In this document: one piece after another, positions 1-19,323 of the stretch
Layout of the letters: every line of letters begins with the position of its first letter
How positions within the stretch are numbered: position 1 is the stretch's first letter
IMG/VR virus record: IMGVR_UViG_3300050343_000034
Span: 1 to 22,103 of that record
DNA from: a virus
Length of the DNA stretch: 22,103 nt
Direction: 5' to 3' (one strand)
Translations under genes and position numbers: made by a program
The notes under the pieces: generated by a model
Told to the model about the DNA's origin: nothing
The model's input: only the letters and a program-made list of their open reading frames with translations
Database searches by the model: none

Positions 1-275
1 ACGCTACGCTAGGCACCCCAATTATCTTTAACTATGCACTTGAACTATCAATGCAACATAATGGATATTATAGGACAAGTTTTTTTCCTCAATGTTTATA
101 AGGTTTAATCTAAAATAACCTAGAAATAAAGCAATCTGTAAAACAATAGGATATTTTTTTAGAATAATAAGGGGGCTATGGTTTTGAATGAGATAAGTTA
201 GATAAGATTATTCTTGGTTATCCCTCCACACTTCCGAGCAACAAGAGAACCAGGCAAAATTAAAAAAAGGTTATA

Positions 276-318
276 GATCAGCCAATGAATTTTAAGGATC
301 AGCCAATAAGTTTTTAAG
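276..318. repeat. Tandem 21/22-bp direct repeat
   Basis: Two adjacent copies start with GATCAGCCAAT and end with TTTTAAG, at 276-296 and 297-318, differing by a few bases. They lie about 35 bases before the promoter of the first gene. They could be an operator pair or short iterons; no binding protein can be named. Confidence 0.6.
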
Positions 319-353
319 ATTGGGGCCGCCTGGCACAAACAAAATATAATATA

Positions 354-398
354 TTGTTTAACTTTCTCTATATATATGTATAATGGGTTTACACAAAC
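354..398 (+). promoter_or_regulatory. Promoter of first early operon with adjacent GTTT-ACAC-AAAC element
   Basis: A TTGTTT box at 354-359 and a perfect TATAAT at 379-384 are separated by 19 bases, a little long. A second TATAAT at 345-350 is also present. Directly after the -10 box, 387-398 reads GTTTACACAAAC, a small inverted repeat with GTTT/AAAC arms that would sit over the transcription start. The same GTTTACA string recurs at two later promoters. Confidence 0.5.
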
Positions 399-410
399 GA
401 AAGGGAAATT

Positions 411-704
411 ATGCAAACTGAAAAATTGCACAAAGACATTCAAAACATAATGAAAGTAAATGAAGATTTGTTTACTTTCCATAGTGGTGGAGGTTGCGAA
501 CATCTAGCTTATAAAGGATGGTTAATTAATGCCGAAGAAGAAAATGGGGATTTTGATTATGATATTACAAAAATTAATTCAAATACTTTTTTAACCTTTG
601 GAGATTATGATTATCAAGATGATATTAATTATTTCTTTTTTGCAACACTTGAAGAGGGAATGAAATTAATAGACAAATACAATATGAAAGGGGAACAATA
701 CTAA
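411..704 (+). CDS. Small acidic hypothetical protein
   Basis: This 97-aa protein is not recognised. It is acidic and rich in Asp, Glu, Asn and aromatic residues, with a DYDYQDD stretch near residue 65, and has no membrane segment. The start is supported by AAAGGG about six bases upstream and by the promoter just before it. It is the first gene of the plus-strand block, and its stop overlaps the next start (TAATG), so the two are probably co-translated. Such genes at the head of early phage operons are often host-takeover factors, but nothing here shows a function. Confidence 0.75.
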   Translation: MQTEKLHKDIQNIMKVNEDLFTFHSGGGCEHLAYKGWLINAEEENGDFDYDITKINSNTFLTFGDYDYQDDINYFFFATLEEGMKLIDKYNMKGEQY

Positions 705-865
705 TGGATAAAAAAACAGAACAAGAGGGTAAAAAGTATTCGGACAATGTCATTGAAGATATGGAAAGAATATTAAGTTATTCAGATGATGAGGACAGAG
801 CAGAGGAGAACCAAGAAGAAATAGATTTTTTTTGGGTTGAGTCTAAGCAAGACCACAACCATTAA
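704..865 (+). CDS. Very small acidic hypothetical protein
   Basis: This 53-aa frame starts at an ATG that overlaps the preceding stop (TAATG) and encodes a strongly charged, Glu/Asp-rich peptide beginning MDKKTEQEGKKYSD. There is no recognisable domain. Its end overlaps the next gene by 29 bases in another frame, which weakens either this end or the TTG start of the neighbour. The coupled start and the absence of any other use for these 130 bases support it as a gene. Confidence 0.55.
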   Translation: MDKKTEQEGKKYSDNVIEDMERILSYSDDEDRAEENQEEIDFFWVESKQDHNH

Positions 866-1073
866 CTATTTAATTTCTTATGGTGGACCCTCTTATAGAT
901 TACAAATAGAAGTAGATGAAGATAATGAAATTGTAGCCATTCGCCCACAGTTTCAAGATTGGTTTACTACTTGGGTAACAATGGAAACAACAGAAGAACA
1001 AGACAAAATTCTAAAGCAATTTGTAGAAGTATCTTATATTGTGGAACATATGACCGAAAGCCATACGGAATAA
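837..1073 (+). CDS. Hypothetical protein with TTG start
   Basis: This 78-aa protein of unknown function opens with MSLSKTTTINYLISYGGPSYRLQ (alternating beta-like pattern) and ends in a polar helix. An in-frame TAG lies at 822-824, so the TTG at 837 is the first usable start; its ribosome site is weak, and it overlaps the previous frame by 29 bases. The composition (IEVDEDNEIVAIRP, QFQDWF) looks like a real small globular protein. A terminator-like hairpin follows directly, so this gene probably closes the first transcription unit. Confidence 0.65.
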   Translation: MSLSKTTTINYLISYGGPSYRLQIEVDEDNEIVAIRPQFQDWFTTWVTMETTEEQDKILKQFVEVSYIVEHMTESHTE

Positions 1074-1085
1074 TTTGATTAGCTT

Positions 1086-1116
1086 AAACTCTAGGGATCA
1101 AAATTTCTAGAGTTTT
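1086..1116 (+). terminator. Terminator-like hairpin
   Basis: AAACTCTAG at 1086-1094 pairs perfectly with CTAGAGTTT at 1107-1115 across a 12-base loop, followed by only one further T. The stem is AT-rich, so this is a weak intrinsic terminator or attenuator after the gene ending at 1073. Confidence 0.5.
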
Positions 1117-1117
1117 G

Positions 1118-1135
1118 GATATTCAAAGGAATATC
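1118..1135. repeat. Perfect inverted repeat upstream of a gene
   Basis: GATATTC at 1118-1124 is mirrored by GAATATC at 1129-1135 across AAAG. It lies two bases after the terminator-like hairpin and about 18 bases before the next ATG, in a place suitable for an operator or a 5' mRNA hairpin. Confidence 0.5.
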
Positions 1136-1152
1136 AAAAGAAAGGAAAAGAA

Positions 1153-1386
1153 ATGAAGTGCGATTGTGGAATTAAATACAAATGTTTTTATCATCAAGGA
1201 TATAGAAATATTAAAGTAGGTACACGAATAGAAACAACATACGAGATTATGGAACGAAGTAAATTAGTAAAATTATTATTTCGTAAATTATGGAATGTTC
1301 TTTATGACTTAGAGAAATTTATAAATCAATATGAAAAAGAAATAAAAATAGAAGTAGATGTATTTGAAAATAAAAAGGTGGCGTAA
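1153..1386 (+). CDS. Small Cys-motif hypothetical protein
   Basis: A 77-aa basic protein with an N-terminal MKCDCGIKYKC cluster (Cys 3, 5 and 11) that could hold a metal, followed by a helical, Lys/Glu-rich remainder. The family is not recognised. AGAAAGGA is placed about eight bases before the ATG. The stop overlaps the next start (TAATG), coupling it to a tiny membrane protein. It belongs to the group of small Cys-containing proteins that fill this early region. Confidence 0.7.
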   Translation: MKCDCGIKYKCFYHQGYRNIKVGTRIETTYEIMERSKLVKLLFRKLWNVLYDLEKFINQYEKEIKIEVDVFENKKVA

Positions 1387-1511
1387 TGGAACTTAACCCA
1401 ACAGAATTTATATTATTAGTTATGGTTTGCTACTCGGTGGGGTTTCTATCGTGTTGGTTAGCGAATAAATTGGAGGACAAGCTAGACAAATATTATTATA
1501 TAAAAAAATAA
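1386..1511 (+). CDS. 41-aa single-pass membrane protein
   Basis: A short frame starting in a TAATG overlap. Residues about 7-27 form one hydrophobic segment (EFILLVMVCYSVGFLSCWLA), followed by a charged tail ending YYYIKK. The layout suggests an N-out, C-in or reverse single-pass inner-membrane peptide; the role is unknown. It is the last gene before a good intrinsic terminator, which supports it as a real operon end. Confidence 0.65.
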   Translation: MELNPTEFILLVMVCYSVGFLSCWLANKLEDKLDKYYYIKK

Positions 1512-1526
1512 ATAGCTGATCACTAA

Positions 1527-1566
1527 CACAAGACCCTAGATTTTCCCTTTGTTCTAGGGTTTTTGT
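1527..1566 (+). terminator. Rho-independent terminator
   Basis: ACCCTAGA at 1533-1540 pairs with TCTAGGGT at 1553-1560 over a 12-base loop, with a run of T (1560-1564) after it. CACAA before and TTGTG after can extend the stem around a small bulge. It closes the operon ending at 1511. Confidence 0.8.
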
Positions 1567-1611
1567 GTATCCTGGCGGTCCTATTGTGTAGGCAGATAAT
1601 GGAAACAAAGG

Positions 1612-1639
1612 TTTACATTAAAGACAATGTAGGTATAAT
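1612..1639 (+). promoter_or_regulatory. Sigma70-like promoter with inverted repeat in the spacer
   Basis: TTTACA at 1612-1617 and a perfect TATAAT at 1634-1639 are 16 bases apart. TACATT (1614-1619) and AATGTA (1626-1631) form an inverted repeat with a 6-base centre inside the promoter, a likely operator. The preceding base makes GTTTACA, as at the other early promoters. It drives the gene at 1671. Confidence 0.7.
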
Positions 1640-1670
1640 GTAGGTAGGTTAATTAAAGAGAGGAAGAACA

Positions 1671-1883
1671 ATGGCTAAAAAAGAAATGGCTATTAGTAGA
1701 GAAATGAAAATGAATCATTTTAAAATAGATGATTTGTACGGAATAGCAGAGAGTGTGTTGGCGTTGCTTATGCAACTAGGAGAACCATTTGCATTTGACT
1801 CGGACTTAATATGCAGTATCAATTTATTTGATGAATGTTTTTGTCCTAATTGTATAGATCAGGAGGATCAGGATGGTTGTTAA
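1671..1883 (+). CDS. Small hypothetical protein with C-terminal CxxC
   Basis: A 70-aa protein with a Lys/Met-rich start, a hydrophobic helix around residues 25-36 and a C-terminal Cys cluster (ECFCPNC, then a final Cys). It is not recognised. AGAGAGGAAG lies six to eight bases before the ATG and a strong promoter precedes it. The end overlaps the next gene by 11 bases, and the ribosome site AGGAGG of that next gene is inside it, so the two are coupled. Confidence 0.7.
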   Translation: MAKKEMAISREMKMNHFKIDDLYGIAESVLALLMQLGEPFAFDSDLICSINLFDECFCPNCIDQEDQDGC

Positions 1884-2256
1884 ATTATATTATAGAAAAT
1901 GCAGCGAATGTAAAAGTGGTATGAGTGCAGGTTATATGTATCACGAGGGTCAAGAATATTTTTGCAAGGATGATTGTGTAGGCAAATTTTTTGGAGATAG
2001 AAAAGCATTCACAAGTTTAGATGATTGGAATAATGATGGCCCAGGTTTAACTTGGGATGAGTTTAATAATCATTGGGATAATATTAATGATTTAGACAAC
2101 AATGCCTTTGAGTTCGCTTGTGAGGTTATGTCTTATACCGAGTGGGAAGATGAATGTAATACGGATGAAGTCTTTGATAAGAACGGAAAATCATATACAC
2201 TTGACGATTTATTATCTTTGAATGAGTCCTTTGGAATAGTTATGGGAGAAGGATAA
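1873..2256 (+). CDS. Zinc-ribbon-like hypothetical protein
   Basis: A 127-aa protein with an N-terminal CSEC pair at residues 10-13 and a second FCKDDC cluster near residues 31-36, the spacing of a small treble-clef or zinc-ribbon fold that ends in a GKFF helix. The remainder is acidic and Asn/Asp-rich. AGGAGG (1861-1866) is well placed before the ATG. The stop overlaps the following start. DNA or RNA binding is possible from the zinc motif, but no substrate can be read. Confidence 0.75.
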   Translation: MVVKLYYRKCSECKSGMSAGYMYHEGQEYFCKDDCVGKFFGDRKAFTSLDDWNNDGPGLTWDEFNNHWDNINDLDNNAFEFACEVMSYTEWEDECNTDEVFDKNGKSYTLDDLLSLNESFGIVMGEG

Positions 2257-2438
2257 TGTATCTATGTAAGGAATGTAGATCAGGCAAAGAGGTTTACCAA
2301 GGATGGTATATAAAAACTAATGCAGATAAGATTATCCCATTAGATGATGGAGCAATAGATACAGTAGATATGATATGTTTAAAATGTATCTGTACAGATA
2401 TAGAATATGTAGATCAGGAGGAATTATGTTCGCAGTAA
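2256..2438 (+). CDS. Two-CxxC zinc-ribbon small protein
   Basis: A 60-aa protein with CKEC at residues 4-7 and CLKC at 41-44 (followed by another Cys), a classical pair of knuckles for one zinc ion, and a GWY turn between them. The function is unknown. It starts in a TAATG overlap and its end overlaps the next gene by 13 bases. It forms part of a run of three consecutive CxxC proteins. Confidence 0.7.
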   Translation: MYLCKECRSGKEVYQGWYIKTNADKIIPLDDGAIDTVDMICLKCICTDIEYVDQEELCSQ

Positions 2439-2644
2439 CAACTAAAGAATGTATACATTGTAGGCAGACAGGTAGTGTTATGGTAGATCCAGAGAAGTAC
2501 ATAGAGTTTACTCAAACACCAAGACACCTACGCAGATTAATCCAGGATATATTCCCAGATCATAGCAGAGCAGAACGAGAGCAACTGTTAACAGGTGTTC
2601 ATCCAGAATGTTTTGATGAAATGTTTAGAGGAGAGGGAGAATAA
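2426..2644 (+). CDS. Conserved actinophage-type small CxxC protein
   Basis: A 72-aa protein. The frame is open from 2375, but the ATG at 2426 has a near-perfect AGGAGGAATT in front and is the better start. Seen: CIHC at residues 9-12, then VDPEKYIEF, RLIQDIFPDHSRAEREQLLTG and a final HPECFDEMF. This order (CxxC, Tyr, IQ-xx-FP, xRExLxxG, C-x-D-x-F) matches from memory a small protein of unknown function that recurs in phages of actinobacteria. Cys residues at both ends may form a zinc site. It is the best single clue to the host group. Confidence 0.75.
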   Translation: MFAVTTKECIHCRQTGSVMVDPEKYIEFTQTPRHLRRLIQDIFPDHSRAEREQLLTGVHPECFDEMFRGEGE

Positions 2645-2657
2645 GAAAGTCAAATAA

Positions 2658-2690
2658 GTTTACACGCTATTGTAAACTTCTGTTTATACT
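2658..2690 (+). promoter_or_regulatory. Promoter overlapped by a perfect 7-bp palindrome
   Basis: GTTTACA (2658-2664) and TGTAAAC (2671-2677) are a perfect inverted repeat around CGCTAT. The left arm contains a TTTACA -35 box; TTTATA at 2683-2688 (18-base spacer) or TATACT at 2685-2690 (20) would be the -10. A dimeric repressor on this palindrome would block the promoter of the gene at 2708. Confidence 0.6.
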
Positions 2691-2707
2691 GTAATGAAAG
2701 GTTATTT

Positions 2708-2896
2708 ATGATAAAGATTGATATGCCACGAGATTGTAGGCAGATAGTCGTAGCTTTTAATAAGAGCTTTCGTATCTTCCCTAGCACGATACAGGTTGAA
2801 CGATATTGTAGGCGAAATAGATTAGAAGTTGTGAGCCAGGAAAGTCAAATGGGTTCATTCATTGTCACTCTTAAAAGAGCAGACAGTACAATATAG
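2708..2896 (+). CDS. Small basic hypothetical protein
   Basis: A 62-aa basic protein rich in Arg, with VERYCRRNRLEVV in the middle and a beta-like end (GSFIVTLKRA). The fold could be a small nucleic-acid-binding domain, but no family is recognised. AAAGG lies about eight bases before the ATG. It has its own promoter with a palindromic operator just upstream and is followed by the structured element at 2902-3012, so it may be regulated apart from its neighbours. Confidence 0.7.
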   Translation: MIKIDMPRDCRQIVVAFNKSFRIFPSTIQVERYCRRNRLEVVSQESQMGSFIVTLKRADSTI

Positions 2897-2901
2897 ACAA
2901 G

Positions 2902-3012
2902 TTGTAGTTAGCTTGTAGCACATACAACAATATGGGTTAGTGGCTTTAAAAGAGCCAAGAACTTCTACGCTAACCTAGTACAGATGTTTTGTGTGTTACA
3001 AGCTAACTATAA
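2902..3012 (+). ncRNA. Long branched stem-loop, candidate structured RNA
   Basis: The outer arms 2902-2929 and 2985-3012 pair over 28 positions with one mismatch (C2925/T2989) and three G-U pairs; the core TAGTTAGCTTGTA (2905-2917) is a perfect complement of 2997-3009. Inside, GGTTAG (2935-2940) pairs with CTAACC (2970-2975), and TGGCT (2941-2945) with AGCCA (2953-2957) forms a nested hairpin. It fills a gap between two genes exactly. It may be a small RNA, an RNase III-processed leader, a cis-regulator of the gene at 3029, or a small inverted-repeat element. No known riboswitch class is recognised. Confidence 0.6.
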
Positions 3013-3028
3013 ATAACAGAAAGGAATT

Positions 3029-3148
3029 ATGTTTAGTAAATTAATATATAGATACAAGTTCTATAAACGAGTACGCTTAGAAGAACAACAACGAAAATCA
3101 CAGGGATTATCACAAGAATTTTTAGACCAGATCAGAAAGGATATGTAA
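3029..3148 (+). CDS. 39-aa hypothetical protein
   Basis: A short frame with a good ribosome site (AGAAAGGA, four bases before the ATG). The peptide is basic then amphipathic: MFSKLIYRYKFYKRVRLEEQ and an end LDQIRKDM. There is no domain. The stop overlaps the ATG of the HTH gene (TAATG), so it is translationally linked to it. It starts 16 bases after the long hairpin, so that structure would form in its leader. Confidence 0.6.
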   Translation: MFSKLIYRYKFYKRVRLEEQQRKSQGLSQEFLDQIRKDM

Positions 3149-3396
3149 TGGAGGAACTATTACAACAAGCACAAGAGAACATTAGCGAGAATGTAGACAA
3201 GCAAGAGAAAGAGAAGTTATATTTAGTACTGCAAGAGAGCTTGAATGAGCTATCAGGATTAGAAGAACTAAATAAAATATACAAAGAGTTAAGAGATAAG
3301 GCAATCAAAGACCTATACAATGTAGGCATATCAGCACAGTCATTAGCAACGACTACTGAACTAACTAGACAAATGATCCATAGGATTGTTAAGTAA
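3148..3396 (+). CDS. Small coiled-coil protein with C-terminal HTH
   Basis: An 82-aa protein. Residues 1-50 are a Glu/Gln/Lys/Leu-rich helix of coiled-coil type; residues about 51-82 (AIKDLYNVGISAQSLATTT, then TRQMIHRIVK) have the pattern of a helix-turn-helix as in sigma region 4 or resolvase-type domains: a Gly turn after the first helix, then Ala-x-x-x-x-Leu in the recognition helix. It probably binds DNA as a dimer and is a candidate reader of the GTTTACA operators, which is inference. The start overlaps the previous stop. Confidence 0.75.
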   Translation: MEELLQQAQENISENVDKQEKEKLYLVLQESLNELSGLEELNKIYKELRDKAIKDLYNVGISAQSLATTTELTRQMIHRIVK

Positions 3397-3398
3397 AC

Positions 3399-3418
3399 AA
3401 CCTCTATTGCTAGAGGTT
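3399..3418 (+). terminator. Hairpin after the HTH gene
   Basis: AACCTCTA (3399-3406) and TAGAGGTT (3411-3418) pair perfectly over a TTGC loop. There is no T-run after it (ATCTACTT), so it is a weak terminator, attenuator or mRNA stabiliser. Confidence 0.5.
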
Positions 3419-3443
3419 ATCTACTTCAGAAAGGAAATAAACA

Positions 3444-3515
3444 TTGAATAATCTGTTTATCAGTTTCAGTCTAGTAGATATTGTCATACTTAGTAACTAT
3501 AATGTAGGAAAATAG
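3444..3515 (+). CDS. Possible 23-aa peptide
   Basis: A TTG start with AGAAAGGA about eight bases upstream opens a hydrophobic 23-residue peptide (MNNLFISFSLVDIVILSNYN...). It ends at the ribosome site of the Rad52-like gene. It could be a leader or membrane peptide. Only the ribosome site supports it; chance is a fair alternative. Confidence 0.3.
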   Translation: MNNLFISFSLVDIVILSNYNVGK

Positions 3516-3524
3516 GAGATAAAA

Positions 3525-3599
3525 TTGGATAAAGAAACATTAAAAAAACTAACTAAAGACTTCCCTAAGAGTGTTGTTAAAGAAAGCACCACAAGGTAA
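3525..3599 (+). other. Displaced N-terminus of the Rad52-like protein
   Basis: AGGAGAT at 3514-3520 leads to a TTG at 3525 and a 24-aa frame whose first 19 residues, LDKETLKKLTKDFPKSVVK, look like the usual start of phage Rad52/Sak proteins. It closes at 3597-3599. Skipping one base near 3582 joins it to the main frame as VVK-KAPQGKFG. The true start of the gene is probably here. Confidence 0.6.
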
Positions 3600-4539
3600 G
3601 TTCGGCGACTATGTACCACACCACATATACACACAACGATTAGTTGATGTAATACCAGGTAAGTACAACTTTAAATACGAGCCACTAAGAGATAAAGATG
3701 GTGCGTTGGTAGGTGCTAAGTGCATACTAGAGATAGATGGCTTAGGAACTATGGAAGAAGTTGGAGATGTAGATAGCAACGCATTGAAAAGAAACATAAC
3801 AGAAAGCGAAGTACTTAAACTTGCAGTATCAGATGGTATCAAGAGATGTTGTATGCGATTTGGTATTGGCTTAGAACTATGGACAGGTGGCGTTACAGAG
3901 GAGGAACATTACTCTGCACCACAACCAGTACAAAAGGCAGGTACAGTTAAAGATCAGGTCATAGAAAAAGAGGATGAGGCTTTAAAGAAAGCTAAGGAAA
4001 ACTTTGCTAAAGATGTAGCACAACCTCCTCCACCAAAAATAACACAAGAAGCATTACAAGAGATGGTATTTATATCCTGTAATGAGGACAAGAACTTTGC
4101 TAACAAGTGTTGGAAAACCTCTATGGAGATGACCAAACTAAAAGCAAAAGTAACAGGAGATGTTGCTACCTGGAAAGAAAGTACAATCAAAACATTCTTA
4201 GACAATGTAGAAACATTTGTTACTAACTACGCAGATGAATACAAAGAACGAGAAGGAAACACAGACACTATCAATAACATCATAGATGTACTTGATGCAA
4301 AGGTGTCGGATAATAAGGAGGAAGAAGTGGGAGAAGTAAAAGAAGGACCTTGGATGCAAGAGCAACCTAGTGAGAAGCAGATGAATACATTTAACAACTG
4401 TCTTACTAAAGCTATTGACAATGGAGATGATGACCTAGCTGCAAAAGCAAAATCAGCATTAGCAGATGGATCAATTAACAAAGGCAACATCTTTGATTGG
4501 GTTGACACAGAAACTTGGAGTCTTAAAGACGGCTCGTGA
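3571..4539 (+). CDS. Rad52/Sak-like single-strand annealing protein
   Basis: Probably anneals complementary single strands during phage recombination and replication. Seen in the first 115 residues: KFGDYVPHHIYTQRLVD, a GxxYNFKYEPL strand, LEIDGLG, then SEVLKLAVSDGIKRCCMRFGIG, the order of the Rad52_Rad22 core of phage annealing proteins; GIGLELW closes it. The following 200 residues are acidic and charged, as in the variable tail that contacts SSB. A methyltransferase follows within 500 bases. The GTG at 3571 has no ribosome site; the in-frame part upstream is open only to 3553, and the likely real start is in another frame at 3525 with a +1 shift at about 3579-3585. Family assignment fairly sure; N-terminus uncertain. 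Confidence 0.8.
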   Translation: MLLKKAPQGKFGDYVPHHIYTQRLVDVIPGKYNFKYEPLRDKDGALVGAKCILEIDGLGTMEEVGDVDSNALKRNITESEVLKLAVSDGIKRCCMRFGIGLELWTGGVTEEEHYSAPQPVQKAGTVKDQVIEKEDEALKKAKENFAKDVAQPPPPKITQEALQEMVFISCNEDKNFANKCWKTSMEMTKLKAKVTGDVATWKESTIKTFLDNVETFVTNYADEYKEREGNTDTINNIIDVLDAKVSDNKEEEVGEVKEGPWMQEQPSEKQMNTFNNCLTKAIDNGDDDLAAKAKSALADGSINKGNIFDWVDTETWSLKDGS

Positions 4540-4670
4540 ACAGGTGTCTTAGTTGTAATATAGGTGAGCTTGACTTGTTCGGTGAGCCAACTAACTTAAT
4601 CAATAATTACTGCGAAGAGTGTAGAAAGGTTATGTACATTGACAGAAGAAGAAATTATCAACAGACTTAA
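4536..4670 (+). CDS. 44-aa zinc-ribbon-like protein
   Basis: A GTG overlapping the Rad52-like stop (GTGA) opens a 44-aa frame with CLSC at residues 4-7 and CEEC at 27-30 and a basic tail (RRRNYQQT). The two knuckles 19 residues apart are typical of a small zinc ribbon. It overlaps the next gene by 32 bases. The coupled start and the CxxC pair make it likely real despite its size and a weak ribosome site. Confidence 0.6.
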   Translation: MNRCLSCNIGELDLFGEPTNLINNYCEECRKVMYIDRRRNYQQT

Positions 4671-5034
4671 TGTGATGTTTCCTGTTATGGATTCCTTACA
4701 GAAATGTGCTGATCAATACTCTCATTATGATTGTGAGAACAAGCAGTATTTAATGGAGATTAAATCAAGAGATAGGAAATATAATCCCTGGCTCATTGAA
4801 CGAGCTAAACTTATAGCAAACTATGACAAAGCAATAGAGGTAGGTAAAGAGTTTATCTATCTTACAGAACACAAGACTAAAATTATTACTTGGAATATAA
4901 ATGACTTAGTTGCAAGTGGTTACAACTTTGGTTGGGAGATCAAAGAGATGCCACAAACAACTGCCTTTGAACACAATGAAGCAGTGTTAAAAGAGGTAGG
5001 TTATTTATACGAACAATTTGGGAGAAAAATATGA
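4639..5034 (+). CDS. Hypothetical protein before the methyltransferase
   Basis: A 131-aa, mostly helical, charged protein beginning at TTG with AAAGG about eight bases upstream. Features: NPWLIERAKLIANYDKAIEVGKEF in the middle and an aromatic stretch SGYNFGWEIKEM. No family is recognised. Its stop overlaps the methyltransferase ATG (ATGA), so both are made together. A role linked to the methyltransferase or the annealing protein is possible from position only. Confidence 0.7.
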   Translation: MTEEEIINRLNVMFPVMDSLQKCADQYSHYDCENKQYLMEIKSRDRKYNPWLIERAKLIANYDKAIEVGKEFIYLTEHKTKIITWNINDLVASGYNFGWEIKEMPQTTAFEHNEAVLKEVGYLYEQFGRKI

Positions 5035-6191
5035 GAGTAGGAAGTTTATTCAGTGGTATTGGTGGATTAGAGTACGGACTAGAGAGATCTGGTCTAGCTA
5101 CATCTAGTGAGTGGATGATAGAGATGGATGACTTCTGTTGTTCTATCTTAGAAAAAAACTTTCCCAATGCGTTAGTCATTAATGACAAAGTAGAAAATAT
5201 AAATCCTTCGGACTTACCGAAGATAGATATATTAACAGCAGGATTTCCCTGTCAACCTGTATCAACAGCAGGTTCAAGAAAAGGAGTGATGGATGAAAGA
5301 TGGTTATGGGATGAAGTATGGAGATTTATTGATGTACTTAGACCACAATACTTTATCTTGGAAAATGTCCCAGGATTATTTACAGCGAACAAAGGGAAAG
5401 CCTTTGAAAGAGTTATCAAAGATATTGCCAAGAGCAGGAGCTATAGATTTGAATGGCAAATTATATCAGCAAGATCAGTTGGTGCAGCACACCTTAGAAA
5501 AAGATTCTTCGGAGTTGGCATCTTGGCAGACACCGAACACAATGGATCATCTACCTCCGAGAACAGGCAAAGCGTTGGAGAACGCACTGTATCGTGGCGA
5601 CAAGGAGAGGAAGTCAAAGAGAAAAATGTCAGGAAATTTGAGGGAGAATCCAAAGATTTGGAGTACACCTCTAGCAAGTCAGACACCAAAACCAATAAAC
5701 AACTTCGCTCCATCAGTGAGAGCAGGGAAAAGGAACTCAACATTGGAGATGGAGTTAGGAGAGAAGAATCCAGAGATGATAGGAAAGAGGCTGAACTATG
5801 GATGGGTGGCACGGCTTATGGGTTTCCCAGATGGATGGCTAAATTAGGTGTAGTAAATGTATGGCAACATACATTAGATAACTTTCCAACTGCAGCTGCA
5901 AGAGATTGGAAAGATACATATGGTACTGTATTAACTGGTAGCATATCATCTAAAAGAAAAACATTACCATTAGAAATATTTAGACAACTTAGAGATACTA
6001 TAAAAGATTTTGCATTATGGGAGTTTGGTATGCCTAGATCAGCAGAGGATTATCCAAATAGAAAGCCAATCCTTATGGCCCTAGGTAATGCAGTAGTACC
6101 ACAATGTGCAGAGCTTGTTGGAAGAATGATAAAAAGAGCAGATGAATTAGGTACTATGGTATTTGATACATCTATAAAGGAGGAAGAATAA
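5031..6191 (+). CDS. DNA (cytosine-5) methyltransferase
   Basis: Transfers a methyl group from S-adenosylmethionine to C5 of cytosine in a specific DNA site, usually protecting phage DNA from restriction. All key motifs are visible in 386 aa: motif I LFSGIGG (6-12), motif IV GFPCQP with catalytic Cys74, motif VI ENV (111-113), motif VIII region SARSVGAAHLRKRFF (146-160) and motif X GNAVVP (352-357). Residues about 165-260 are a charged, low-complexity target-recognition segment, followed by GGTAYGFPRWM (259-269). The site is unknown; no partner endonuclease is seen, so it is an orphan enzyme. Positions 5293-5847 are also open in the +1 frame with family-like motifs. Confidence 0.93.
   Translation: MRVGSLFSGIGGLEYGLERSGLATSSEWMIEMDDFCCSILEKNFPNALVINDKVENINPSDLPKIDILTAGFPCQPVSTAGSRKGVMDERWLWDEVWRFIDVLRPQYFILENVPGLFTANKGKAFERVIKDIAKSRSYRFEWQIISARSVGAAHLRKRFFGVGILADTEHNGSSTSENRQSVGERTVSWRQGEEVKEKNVRKFEGESKDLEYTSSKSDTKTNKQLRSISESREKELNIGDGVRREESRDDRKEAELWMGGTAYGFPRWMAKLGVVNVWQHTLDNFPTAAARDWKDTYGTVLTGSISSKRKTLPLEIFRQLRDTIKDFALWEFGMPRSAEDYPNRKPILMALGNAVVPQCAELVGRMIKRADELGTMVFDTSIKEEE
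5293..5847 (+). CDS. Overlapping +1-frame ORF inside the methyltransferase
   Basis: A 184-aa frame wholly inside the methyltransferase. It shows, in order, SWKMSQ (22-27), LPRAGA near residues 45-50, SWQTP (77-81), a second WSTPLAS, and GWVARLMGFPDGW before the stop. Phage proteins with the order SWRTSQ, PRSG, WPTP, WVEWLMGFPxGW are remembered as common and often sit at cytosine methyltransferases. Each motif lies over a conserved methyltransferase motif in the other frame. It may be an overprinted gene or only a shadow of the conserved codons; no clear ribosome site is seen before the ATG. Confidence 0.3.
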   Translation: MKDGYGMKYGDLLMYLDHNTLSWKMSQDYLQRTKGKPLKELSKILPRAGAIDLNGKLYQQDQLVQHTLEKDSSELASWQTPNTMDHLPPRTGKALENALYRGDKERKSKRKMSGNLRENPKIWSTPLASQTPKPINNFAPSVRAGKRNSTLEMELGEKNPEMIGKRLNYGWVARLMGFPDGWLN

Positions 6192-6471: not shown

Positions 6472-6751
6472 ACCTTTACCTGAATACCTTACTATTCAAC
6501 CAAGTAAGATAGAGGGCTTAGGTTTATTTACCTTAAAAGATTTAGAACCATACGAGTCACTAGGTATGACACACGCACATTGGTTTGGTGAAGATAACAA
6601 CCTACTGCGTACACCTCTTGGTGGTTTTATTAATCATAGCGAAACACCTAACTGTAAGATTACAGGTAAGATGACACGCTATTTATTTACAGAGGAAATT
6701 ATACCTGCTGGATCAGAGCTTACTGTTAAGTATGGTATGTACTCTGTCTAA
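6464..6751 (+). CDS. SET-domain protein (putative lysine methyltransferase)
   Basis: A compact 95-aa SET domain. Seen: EGLGLF at 17-22 (GxG cofactor loop), NHSETPNC at 57-64 (the canonical NHSxxPNC knot strand) and GSELTVKYG at 83-91, where Tyr90 corresponds to the catalytic tyrosine of ELTxxY. SET proteins methylate lysines on proteins with S-adenosylmethionine; the substrate here cannot be inferred. There is no pre- or post-SET part. It shares its operon with a DNA methyltransferase, so this phage may encode two SAM-dependent modifiers. It is the last gene of the plus block, and its stop overlaps the opposite-strand stop by 4 bases. Confidence 0.85.
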   Translation: MYRPLPEYLTIQPSKIEGLGLFTLKDLEPYESLGMTHAHWFGEDNNLLRTPLGGFINHSETPNCKITGKMTRYLFTEEIIPAGSELTVKYGMYSV

Positions 6752-7899
6752 ACTATCTTGTAATTATCCCAACCATCTTTATCAATAGTAAAGGTTAACA
6801 CTCCAGGCTTACTCCACATACCAGTTCGTGCAGTAAAGTCTATACTTGCATCAATAGATGGACATTGAAACCAAGTTCTGTTACCTTGCTGCATCATACG
6901 AGGGTGATGAAAATGCCCTGTAATAAGAATCTCTGCATCTCCAACTGGGAAGTCACCGAACATTTGTCCTTGCCACCACTTCATTATCTTTCCCTCTGGA
7001 CCTGTACCACCACTGTGCATATGTCCGTGAGTAAATCCAACAGTTAATCCTTTTATATCTACTGTATGATGGAAACCCTCTGGTATGGACACAGTAACTT
7101 TGTCATATCGTGGGTTCTGTTCCATAATCTCTTGGCATATCTCTAAGTGCATAGTGTCAGAGTTGTCTAATCGTGATGTCACGACCTGTCCTTTGCCTGA
7201 TCTAGCCATCTCTCCGTGATTAGCAGGTACACCAGACAGTACAATCTTGTTTGCATAGGGTAGAAATGTATCAACAGTTTTCATTATGAGCTTTCTTGCT
7301 AAGTGATATTGTTGAGATAGATTTAACGATACATTATGTGGTTGTGAGTCGTAGAATCCATAACAGCCTTCGGTCAAATCGCCCATAGAAAGCAAATAAA
7401 TTTCATCTACGCTACCTAGTTGCCTAACCTCTGCTACTGCTCTCTCAAGTGCCTTGTCGTACCTCTCAAGCGTTTTCTCTACACCAAGGTCAACTTTACC
7501 CAGTTGCCAGTCACTAAGCGTGAAGATGTACGCCAGATCACTCTTAATCTTCTTTTTCTGTAGTGGTTTCTTCTTTGATACTTCTTTAAGTAGCTTGTCA
7601 TACCACTCATCACGCTGTGGATGTCGCCTTCTGACCACTCCTTTGAACGCATAAAAGGTTTCAACTGTACCACCTTTAAGTTGTGTGTTCCAAGATGATG
7701 CTTTAACTTTGCCATCTATCTCGTAATGTTCTGGATCAAAGCCCCAATCTTTTAAGATAGTGTCAAATTTAGATTTGTAATTAGGGTCTTGCCCTATATG
7801 TGTAATCTCTCCTAAGCCTGTGGACTCATCAAACTCTGCTGATGGTTGCCAACCTGACTTAAAATAGTTATTGCCTAAGTCTTTTTTGTCTTTCTTCAT
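6748..7899 (-). CDS. Calcineurin-like metallophosphoesterase
   Basis: A two-metal phosphoesterase of 383 aa. Seen: SDWQLGK (129-135, the DxH-like strand with Gln132), GDLTEG (173-178), ANHGE (226-230, equivalent of GNHD/E), THGHM (290-294) and GHFHHP (328-333). The order is complete for the superfamily. The N-terminal 120 residues are a phage-specific extension with KKKPLQKKKIK. Similar proteins are remembered from actinophages; nuclease or phosphatase activity in DNA metabolism is possible. It is the last gene of the minus block. Its ribosome site GAAAGG lies in a hairpin at 7904-7921. Confidence 0.88.
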   Translation of the reverse strand: MKKDKKDLGNNYFKSGWQPSAEFDESTGLGEITHIGQDPNYKSKFDTILKDWGFDPEHYEIDGKVKASSWNTQLKGGTVETFYAFKGVVRRRHPQRDEWYDKLLKEVSKKKPLQKKKIKSDLAYIFTLSDWQLGKVDLGVEKTLERYDKALERAVAEVRQLGSVDEIYLLSMGDLTEGCYGFYDSQPHNVSLNLSQQYHLARKLIMKTVDTFLPYANKIVLSGVPANHGEMARSGKGQVVTSRLDNSDTMHLEICQEIMEQNPRYDKVTVSIPEGFHHTVDIKGLTVGFTHGHMHSGGTGPEGKIMKWWQGQMFGDFPVGDAEILITGHFHHPRMMQQGNRTWFQCPSIDASIDFTARTGMWSKPGVLTFTIDKDGWDNYKIV

Positions 7900-8228: not shown

Positions 8229-8809
8229 TATGTAATAAGTCTACCTTTTAGCATTGCATTTGTTTTGATAACATTTCCATTTATCTCTTGAAGTTTTTCA
8301 TATACGCTATCAGCTAGTATCATATGGTCTTTAGCTTTGTTATCTCCACCACTAAGGTTTATCTTTGTATATTCTATGGTGACATCATCACCTTTAAGTA
8401 TTGCACCAGATACTTTAGGATAGAGTTTCTTGTAAGCGTTAGCACTACTGCCAACCATACCATTAAAGTTTACATCTAAGTCTTGTTGTGAGTCACCAAT
8501 TATTAAACAACCACTGGTGTGCTCATCACTATTACCTTGATGAATTAAAATATATTCAAAGCCTGGTACATCTTGTAACCACAACATACCTCTATGAAAG
8601 GTAGGATATTTCTTGGTGTAACGAGAGTTAAATCCACCAACTGTTCTAAGTTTAAGTTTGTATGTGCCTTCTGGTATGCAGGTTTCGTGCATTACTTTGA
8701 CTGCTTGATACTGATCCTCTAAAGTATAACACTCAAACTTACCATCAATAAACAGCATCCCATTAGTTGCATCCTTACCAAATTGTGTCCTGACTACTTG
8801 TAATTTCAT
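8228..8809 (-). CDS. DUF5675-family protein, likely cell-wall acting
   Basis: A 193-aa protein. Residues 10-105 follow the DUF5675 pattern: GMLFIDGKFECYTLED, IPEGTYKLKL, a loop, LWLQDVPGFEYILIHQGN (His90, Asn93), then HTSGCLIIG with Cys101. His and Cys in these places recall the L,D-transpeptidase or carboxypeptidase type of site. The next gene is a holin, so it is probably the lysis enzyme or its helper, an inference from position. The C-terminal 60 residues are a helical extension. AAAGG is upstream of the start. Confidence 0.75.
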   Translation of the reverse strand: MKLQVVRTQFGKDATNGMLFIDGKFECYTLEDQYQAVKVMHETCIPEGTYKLKLRTVGGFNSRYTKKYPTFHRGMLWLQDVPGFEYILIHQGNSDEHTSGCLIIGDSQQDLDVNFNGMVGSSANAYKKLYPKVSGAILKGDDVTIEYTKINLSGGDNKAKDHMILADSVYEKLQEINGNVIKTNAMLKGRLIT

Positions 8810-18384: not shown

Positions 18385-19323
18385 TTAGGCTACAGATAGG
18401 TTTGTTATCTTTGCGTGGAACTGTTCTGGACCATATTCTAATCCAATTTCTCCATACACTTGGTACTTATAAGCTGCACCAGTTTGAGCTAATGGCTCAA
18501 CAAAGAAGTGTCCTTTTCCTGGAATGTCCAAGAAAACTGGCTTCATAAACGCAAGATCAGCAATGAGAACATCATCAGCTGGTATGTGTCGTTCAAAAAC
18601 GATACCTACTTGACCGAAGTCTGTTTCTATTGTTGTGATATTAACGCCACCGATATTTCTATCTCTTGGTGCTAAAGCTAAAGCACTTGAATAGATAGAA
18701 GATAGTTTCTGCTTTTGAAAAGCATTAGCGAATATAACTGGCATCTCAAATGGAGCACCAGAGTCAGCCATTTTCTTTAAAGCTGATTCTACTTTTGCTT
18801 GTGTCAAAGCAGCTGCACCACCAGCAACTTCGTTAGTTGTTACTGCTGCTAACATACCCCTAGTTTTTCTAGGTGTAGTTATGTTGGCACCTGCGTTATA
18901 AGCTCCTTGAATAAAGGAATGCTCAATATCTCTTGCAGCTGTTTTCATAGCCATATCTAATTGGAAAGCCAATTCATCTTGAACTGGTTGATTACCAATG
19001 ATAGATTCTCCAGCTATGTTACCGACTGCTGCTTGTTTGGTGTATGATACTTCAACACCATACTGCATTATTTGAGTAACATTGCTTACTTCGCTTCTTG
19101 TTCTACCTTTCATAGTAGGGTCAGCACCTTCAACAACTGCTGTTTGTGTAGCACCTGCGAGGTCTGTTGTCTGCCAAGTAAATTGTTTTGATGAAACTGA
19201 TATACCACCAGTCATACCACCAATTGCACTCAATAATGGAGTATCTGTAGGGGAAACATTAAATAGTTCTCCTACATAGTTAGGGAGGTTAAAGGATTGT
19301 CCTTGACCTGTTATTGCACCCAT
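18385..19323 (-). CDS. Major capsid protein, SU10/DUF5309 type
   Basis: 312 aa, HK97-fold shell protein. Seen: SPTDTPLLSAIGG (24-36), FTWQTTDLAGA (48-58), VVEGADPT, RSEVSNVTQIMQYGVEVSYTKQAAVGNIAGE, QDELAFQLDMAMKTAARDIEHSFIQG and RKTRGMLAAV, the run of phrases typical of the DUF5309 major head proteins. The C-terminus holds VFLDIPGKGHFFVEPL and YGEIGLEYGPEQFHAKI. AAAGGAGAA lies six bases before the ATG, a strong site as expected for an abundant protein. The scaffold gene is directly upstream. Confidence 0.88.
   Translation of the reverse strand: MGAITGQGQSFNLPNYVGELFNVSPTDTPLLSAIGGMTGGISVSSKQFTWQTTDLAGATQTAVVEGADPTMKGRTRSEVSNVTQIMQYGVEVSYTKQAAVGNIAGESIIGNQPVQDELAFQLDMAMKTAARDIEHSFIQGAYNAGANITTPRKTRGMLAAVTTNEVAGGAAALTQAKVESALKKMADSGAPFEMPVIFANAFQKQKLSSIYSSALALAPRDRNIGGVNITTIETDFGQVGIVFERHIPADDVLIADLAFMKPVFLDIPGKGHFFVEPLAQTGAAYKYQVYGEIGLEYGPEQFHAKITNLSVA

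Follow-up and report, generated by a model that had tools for sequence, protein, structure and literature searches.

The stretch of DNA analysed here, IMG/VR virus record IMGVR_UViG_3300050343_000034 (a virus contig of 22,103 bases, referred to below as the window), is best explained as carrying the control region for the early genes of an uncultured phage. At least three rightward promoter-like sites, near 379, 1634 and 2685 (P_left, P2 and P3), were found without one shared GTTTACA operator. An oriented motif, approximately KAnAWT-GTAGG and often followed by CA, recurs in early spacers and genes, and P3 contains a dyad which is a putative operator. To this explanation as a whole we give a probability of about 55%. 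The record is classed as linear, so that the window may be, and probably is, a fragment.

GTTTACA at the early promoters

A first-pass annotation had proposed that GTTTACA is shared by three early promoters, two of them with clear dyads, and that the small helix-turn-helix (HTH) protein encoded at 3148-3396 could regulate them in a simple early-gene circuit. The word does occur on the plus strand at 387-393, 1611-1617 and 2658-2664, with its complement at 2671-2677, and TATAAT at 379-384 and 1634-1639 and TACATT/AATGTA at 1614-1631 are likewise present. The promoter-like character of the three sites was also supported. What could not be maintained is the single regulon, since the frequency of the word is at the chance level. 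In fact, with two more copies at 8468 (plus strand) and 20208 (minus strand), the window holds six against 5.90 expected, a number which 54 of 100 shuffles get to, and over the window and 23 relatives, 24 records in all, 87 copies were counted as compared with 94 of the reversed control word. Within the early spacer (987 bp, marked out by the analyst) there are four copies where 0.26 would be expected, yet three further 7-mer pairs occur four times there as well, and some 7-mer occurs at least four times in 91% of 500 shuffles of the early spacers. These four copies are unremarkable because a search over all words gives such counts. Thus, as a word common to the three promoters GTTTACA is a coincidence, and it was rejected as a regulon word in the window, in the relatives and in the early spacers alike. 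A common dyad geometry was also rejected, since the three sites have different arms and loops. Moreover, the relatives carry other words at P_left and P2, which means that the word is not conserved at the promoters of relatives at two of the three sites.

At P_left, no consensus -35 was found and the promoter scan does not list this site. In an alignment of the window with nine relatives, all nine read GTTACAAA just after the presumed -10, where the window reads GTTTACACAAAC. The position at 387 is consequently a conserved one whose usual word is not GTTTACA, and by this alignment the copy in the window is a variant of a putative start-region element, GTTACAAA. In four of the nine (L006, L014, L017 and L174) this element forms the right arm of GTAAC-N6-GTTAC. 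The best dyad at P_left in the window was equalled in 47% of 1000 shuffles.

At P2, the copy at 1611 serves only as the -35, and the arrangement TTTACA-16-TATAAT falls within the SigA/sigma-70 hexamer spacing of 16-18 nt. The promoter scan returned 25 sites in the window against 27.3 in shuffles, so that the hexamer match alone is weak. Most relatives keep TTGCAT-16/17-TACAAT at this place, and L003 has TTGACA-17-TACAAT. Of the two dyads described as clear, the one at P2 (1614-1631) is not clearly above chance, its arm length being reached in 9.4% of 1000 shuffles, and it is absent from the listed relatives at P2. In 11 of 13 distinct P2 sequences, the exceptions being the window and L014, GTAACATAnnnGTTAC extends across the spacer and the -10 TACAAT. 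The GTAAC-N6-GTTAC pattern has 11 sites in 9 of the 24 records, three at P_left, eight at P2 and none elsewhere, with none for the reversed control and none in the window itself. Since the pattern was derived from these promoters, its presence there is partly by construction, and only its absence elsewhere counts as a test. It nonetheless looks like what a shared early operator would be in this group, and the window is without it. A search of IMG/VR with GTAACATARNRGTTACAAA gave nine stretches, three of them in the phage group (L171, L182 and L151); the flanks of the other six, judged by eye, are unlike those of the group.

The dyad at P3

The second of these dyads stood up. GTTTACA at 2658-2664 is an arm of the GTTTACA/TGTAAAC palindrome, which belongs to a 24-bp dyad (9-bp arms and a 6-nt loop) reached in only 0.4% of 1000 shuffles of the 63-bp region. 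Among 10 distinct sequences none of the 18 arm positions varies, as compared with one of six in the loop and six of the 39 non-loop upstream positions outside the dyad, while the gene at P3 varies at 30 of 186 positions, 19 of these being among its 62 third positions. The dyad is found in all 11 close loci and in none of 21 distant relatives of the adjacent gene. Several relatives with a different upstream neighbour gene still hold it. From these comparisons we infer that the dyad is an operator. If transcription starts near 2697, it would cover about -41 to -18, so that a regulator bound there, presumably a dimer, would block RNA polymerase.

The spacing of 20 nt between TTTACA and the -10 of P3 is long for a usual promoter; in all 21 distant relatives the best -35 lies 16-18 nt from the -10. 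In these relatives (L050-L069 and L025), upstream of the homologue of the gene at 2708, the start codon comes six bases after the -10 in 15 cases and seven in the other 6, as expected of leaderless mRNA.

The candidate regulator

The best candidate for such a regulator is the protein encoded at 3148-3396, a predicted coiled-coil/HTH protein from the same presumed operon, which could plausibly act as its own repressor. Its gene accompanies P3 in those close loci that extend to it. In its structure model (predicted local distance difference test score, pLDDT, 92.7; predicted template modelling score, pTM, 0.59) a single long helix is followed by an HTH at the C terminus. The nine best PDB matches given by Foldseek are all HTH proteins (IstA, a LuxR-type regulator and a resolvase among them), with root-mean-square deviations of 0.7-1.3 over 29-33 columns, the best E value (0.42) not being significant. 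The protein itself matches PHROG 686 (HTH) with E 0.005, and within its family 6 of 19 members match PHROG 686 and 5 of 19 match Pfam HTH_11 (best 0.004). An HTH domain is thus predicted by the model and by weak scores. Weighing against this assignment, PHROG 7545 (HNH endonuclease) is matched by 10 of the 19 family members, above PHROG 686.

As to the role first suggested for this protein, a predicted HTH encoded behind the P3 dyad agrees with it, but control of all three promoters does not: L002 combines a 100% identical copy with a P2 of the GTAAC-N6-GTTAC type, without the P2 element of the window, and the protein therefore cannot run all three.

An oriented TGTAGG motif

In the early regions of the four larger records, TGTAGG is the top-ranked sense 6-mer in every case, tied with GTAGGC in the window. 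The early copies number 9, 13, 18 and 15 (window first) against 1.43, 1.23, 1.59 and 1.45 expected, and all 55 are oriented with transcription. Within positions 1-4600 of the window, nine copies were reached in none of 1000 shuffles. Furthermore, the regions upstream of P2 (13 distinct sequences, 1430 bp) hold 34 sense and no antisense copies, most of them at positions -87, -57 and -40 as counted from the copy at the -10.

The sequence on both sides of these copies also differs from that of copies elsewhere in the same records. A at the fourth -10 position is found in 47 of 55 early and 4 of 47 other copies, and the hexamer ending in the T of TGTAGG matches TATAAT at 4.33, 3.85, 3.72 and 3.80 of 6 positions in the early regions, as compared with 2.1, 2.17, 2.42 and 1.85 outside them and, for the window, 2.66 for any hexamer ending in T. 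After GTAGG, CA follows in 24/55 early copies against 2/47, and a pyrimidine-purine step in 39/55 against 19/47 (by record, 8/9, 10/13, 11/18 and 10/15 early; 3/10, 3/12, 6/12 and 7/13 elsewhere). The whole may be read as a -10 followed by GTAGG as discriminator and then by a start site. On this basis, there is about an even chance that most copies act as weak promoters driven by the -10, or as RNA polymerase pause sites, within one early-gene programme.

Several points weigh against this interpretation. The bounds of the early regions were chosen by the analyst; in the window alone the enrichment is borderline (about 0.08 after correction for 4096 words, by the analyst's arithmetic), and much of its strength comes from three relatives with partly homologous copies. 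The pyrimidine-purine step is barely enriched in G005 (11/18 vs 6/12) and G006 (10/15 vs 7/13). The -35 partners are only slightly above background, averaging 2.85 matches against 2.60, with at least four matches in 31% against 15%, and five of the nine copies in the window lie inside genes. In more distant relatives, 17 loci hold 52 sense and 13 antisense copies, from 7/0 in L064 and 8/0 in L067 to 0/3 in L023, 0/0 in L025, 1/1 in L026 and 1/2 in both L056 and L007; this mixed orientation means that the motif may belong to only part of the group.

Other origins of the motif were considered and rejected. A full -35/-10 promoter at every copy has weak support on the -35 side, and a ribosome site does not agree with the distances to the next start, which are not constant (15-287 nt in the window). 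Codon usage as the sole cause of the coding copies is contradicted by their occurrence in several frames and by the flanking signature, which is confined to early copies; of the four Cys-Arg pairs three are encoded by TGTAGG, numbers too small for a test.

The features discussed are collected in Table 1.

Table 1. Coordinates of early-region features in the window
Position	Strand	Feature	Basis
379-384	+	-10 TATAAT of P_left	sequence; aligned -10 in relatives
387-393	+	GTTTACA around presumed start	alignment of 10 promoters
411-704	+	first early gene, 97 amino acids, no family found	
1587-1592	+	TGTAGG copy 1	
1612-1617	+	-35 TTTACA of P2	promoter scan, 11/12 matches, 16-nt spacer
1614-1631	+	TACATT-N6-AATGTA dyad in P2 spacer	sequence, dyad shuffles
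1628-1633	+	TGTAGG copy 2	
1634-1639	+	-10 TATAAT of P2, fused to GTAGG	sequence, promoter scan
1639-1644	+	TGTAGG copy 3, at presumed P2 start site	
1977-1982	+	TGTAGG copy 4, coding DNA	
2459-2464	+	TGTAGG copy 5, coding DNA	
2656-2679	.	operator-like dyad AAGTTTACA-N6-TGTAAACTT of P3	shuffles, relatives, alignment
2685-2690	+	-10 TATACT of P3, TTTACA 20 nt upstream	sequence, relatives
2708-2896	+	first gene of presumed P3 operon, 62 amino acids, predicted beta-beta-alpha-beta-beta	
2735-2740	+	TGTAGG copy 6, coding DNA	
2807-2812	+	TGTAGG copy 7, coding DNA	
3029-3148	+	second gene of presumed P3 operon, 39 amino acids	
3148-3396	+	third gene of presumed P3 operon, 82 amino acids, predicted long helix 2-58 and HTH 63-81	model, Foldseek, families
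3321-3326	+	TGTAGG copy 8, in HTH gene	
3498-3508	+	TATAAT-GTAGG of P4, a presumed fourth promoter upstream of the annealing-protein gene, with TGTAGG copy 9 at 3503	

Comparison with known systems

The TGTAGG system resembles two sets of oriented sites described in cultured actinophages and, as far as its sequences tell, corresponds in full to neither. According to PMC9283540, stoperators are asymmetric, numerous sites oriented with transcription and placed at promoters and downstream of them, whose reversal abolishes the effect. Cluster A stoperators are bound by an immunity repressor with an HTH and a second domain. The likeness to the cluster A (L5 type) stoperators of that account lies in short, asymmetric, oriented sites in many copies; unlike them, the sites here are centred on TGTAGG, carry a -10-like prefix, are enriched in early regions and often lie within genes.

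The start-associated sequences (SAS) of cluster K are, according to PMC3203893, oriented repeats of 13 bp found close to start codons within the non-structural half of the genome, about half of them with inverted repeats; PMC11373665 later describes them as holding putative SigA-like promoters. In extended start-associated sequences (ESAS), putative SigA-like promoters go together with an imperfect inverted repeat (PMC3203893, PMC11373665). Oriented repeats limited to the non-structural half are a likeness to SAS/ESAS, and an imperfect inverted repeat lying over a SigA-like promoter recalls the P2 of the 11 of 13 sequences with GTAAC-N6-GTTAC, not that of the window. SAS lie about 3-9 bp from start codons, which is not the case for the TGTAGG copies, and the sequences of SAS and ESAS differ from the motif: none of the 79 contexts listed reads like the SAS consensus GGGATAGGAGCCC, and no SAS-like sequence of the kind coupled downstream of ESAS was found in the listed P2 regions.

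The 17-bp dyads of cluster O mycobacteriophages are, according to PMC4351075, phage-specific sites in genomes with predicted SigA promoters, some predicted to be leaderless, and in this they recall P3; they number more than 30 per genome in that account, whereas a single copy of the P3 dyad was found in the window. With sigma-70/SigA promoters in general, P2 shares a -35 and a -10 and the other promoters share -10 hexamers, the difference being the GTAGG that immediately follows the -10 at P2 and P4. Among the listed matches of the literature search on TGTAGG, promoter and phage terms, no title concerns this motif, and its absence from print is not claimed.

Alternative explanations

Whether the P3 dyad is an operator at all has to be weighed against its conservation merely as part of the whole promoter block, or its working as an RNA hairpin, an alternative that we regard as unlikely. 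It would account for the fact that the dyad lies within a block conserved throughout, the close aligned loci being 91-95% identical across it with merely 7 of 63 upstream positions variable. Also on the debit side of the operator, none of the 21 distant relatives has the dyad, though many of them encode HTH homologues. What speaks for the operator is the difference between invariant arms and variable surroundings (0/18 vs 6/39), which is suggestive, not strong. As for the hairpin, it would lie upstream of the -10 and hence occur only in read-through transcripts, and no T run follows it. The long spacer could also suggest a MerR-like promoter, in which an activator twists the dyad so as to bring -35 and -10 into register, and it is true that TTTACA-20-TATACT in the clade of the window departs from the 16-18 nt of all 21 distant relatives. 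By the rules for MerR-type promoters, a -35 inside the left dyad arm, a dyad centre near -29.5 and a candidate protein with its HTH at the C end do not fit, and this explanation is extremely improbable.

For the TGTAGG copies, the main though doubtful alternative to weak promoters or pause sites is that they are asymmetric protein sites which stop or slow elongation in the manner of stoperators, one of them overlapping the P2 start as an operator. The motif is indeed short, asymmetric and present in many copies, all 55 early ones following transcription, at promoters and in the transcribed region, which are traits of stoperators described in PMC9283540. It also holds a -10-like hexamer that a stoperator does not need, and no repressor of the stoperator family was recognised among the ten proteins scanned per library, a scan that left most genes out in a window which is probably a fragment. 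The circuit first proposed, with GTTTACA as the common operator at three promoters for the protein at 3148-3396, is very improbable. All four early copies of the word do lie in spacers and the protein does have a predicted HTH, but the chance frequency, the different dyad geometry at each site and the different words found at P_left and P2 in relatives whose HTH protein is identical or almost so argue against it.

Genome context

The early open reading frames (ORFs) of the window run rightward and the long later ones leftward. No phage record matched the window at the megablast level. The phosphoesterase (6748-7899) matches 803 phage records; 800 of these carry one of ten genus names, all of which we take to be actinobacterial. 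The capsid protein matches 184 records with mixed hosts, 100 being Pseudomonas phages, and the best among the matches listed are Mycobacterium and Propionibacterium phages (about 47%); the terminase of one relative matches 205 records, also mixed. One gene thus points to actinophages, and an actinobacterial host can only be inferred, because capsid and terminase matches span mixed hosts.

The gene at 3571-4539 looks like that of a single-strand annealing protein, matching PHROG 3290 (E 9.7e-7), with Rad52 in Pfam under the cut-off. The 62-amino-acid protein of the presumed P3 operon was rejected as an HTH regulator in view of its predicted fold, for which there was no significant match (Foldseek best E 0.14; VIA best Z 5.5 with a protein L variant, 50 residues, 2.1 Å), and library scans gave no family. 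One PDB sequence match (E 0.0003, 18 lectin residues, no stretch passing alone) is read as chance.

Upstream of the first promoter, positions 1-224 are non-coding, with invariant positions and T tracts, and show 75-92% identity in the longer matches to relatives; in G005 the counterpart lies where some 1.2 kb, with a single short ORF, separate the early genes from the late ones. In 704-2425 and the corresponding regions of relatives, the order of P2, the gene ending at 2644 and P3 is kept and the genes between differ, so that small early genes seem to be exchanged as cassettes. Behind an early gene group, an inverted repeat at 1074-1127 (21-nt arms, 81% complementary, 12 nt between) is perhaps a terminator.

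The spacer at 2899-3012 holds a long RNA-like hairpin (-50 kcal/mol, z -7.0), present in L006 and absent at the same place from L002, L003, L005 and L014-L017. Its arms, TTGTAGCACATA...TGTGTGTTACA, matched 93 IMG/VR stretches. The 77 distinct copies fall into 30 loop classes of 50-80 nt, with the same loop in unrelated flanks; nine further stem pairs outside the searched words hold in 73-77 of the 77, G-U is kept at two stem pairs (60 and 65 of 77), and 73 of 77 copies are oriented with the local genes. The kept pairs and this orientation suggest that the hairpin functions as RNA. In 8 of 25 records hairpins stand in tandem, in one direction and 126-264 bases apart. Rfam gave no hairpin match at gathering score in 18 loci, nor in the window, and a literature search combining repeat and hairpin terms matched no paper. 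A transposase of the repetitive extragenic palindromic (REP) type (Y1) was rejected as the mover, PF01797 being found in 0 of 25 records. Bacterial genome contigs gave one match, in a contig of a metagenome-assembled genome. The left end, GTAGG...TTGTAG, resembles the TGTAGG motif.

Further along the window, the cytosine methyltransferase gene at 5031-6191 is overlapped by a second long frame (5293-5847), for which a methyltransferase family was likewise matched (PHROG 1008, E 1.3e-5); in L026 the second frame is 83% conserved against 73% for the first, and among 26 loci compared the gene was matched only in L025 and L026. Dual coding or a shifted gene are possible readings. On the minus strand, 18405-18533 resembles the Hovlinc ribozyme family below the threshold (26.6 bits against a gathering score of 42.3, E 0.12), probably by chance.

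Implications for the phage group

A motif shared by chance, GTTTACA, gives way to two that are testable. In a wider proposal, which we hold to be rather improbable, the phage group would mark its whole early region, both within and between genes, with a one-way module of -10, GTAGG and start, repeated about every 300-500 bases and recognised by a factor specific to the phage, which might be the small HTH protein. Regulator specificity would be set by a second layer of dyads that can be swapped at P_left and P2, some phages having GTAAC-N6-GTTAC there and others having different words. If the TGTAGG module does start or pause transcription, it would provide a sequence handle on how early genes are run in an uncultured phage group, and it would then offer a point of comparison for the stoperators and SAS/ESAS described in cultured actinophages.

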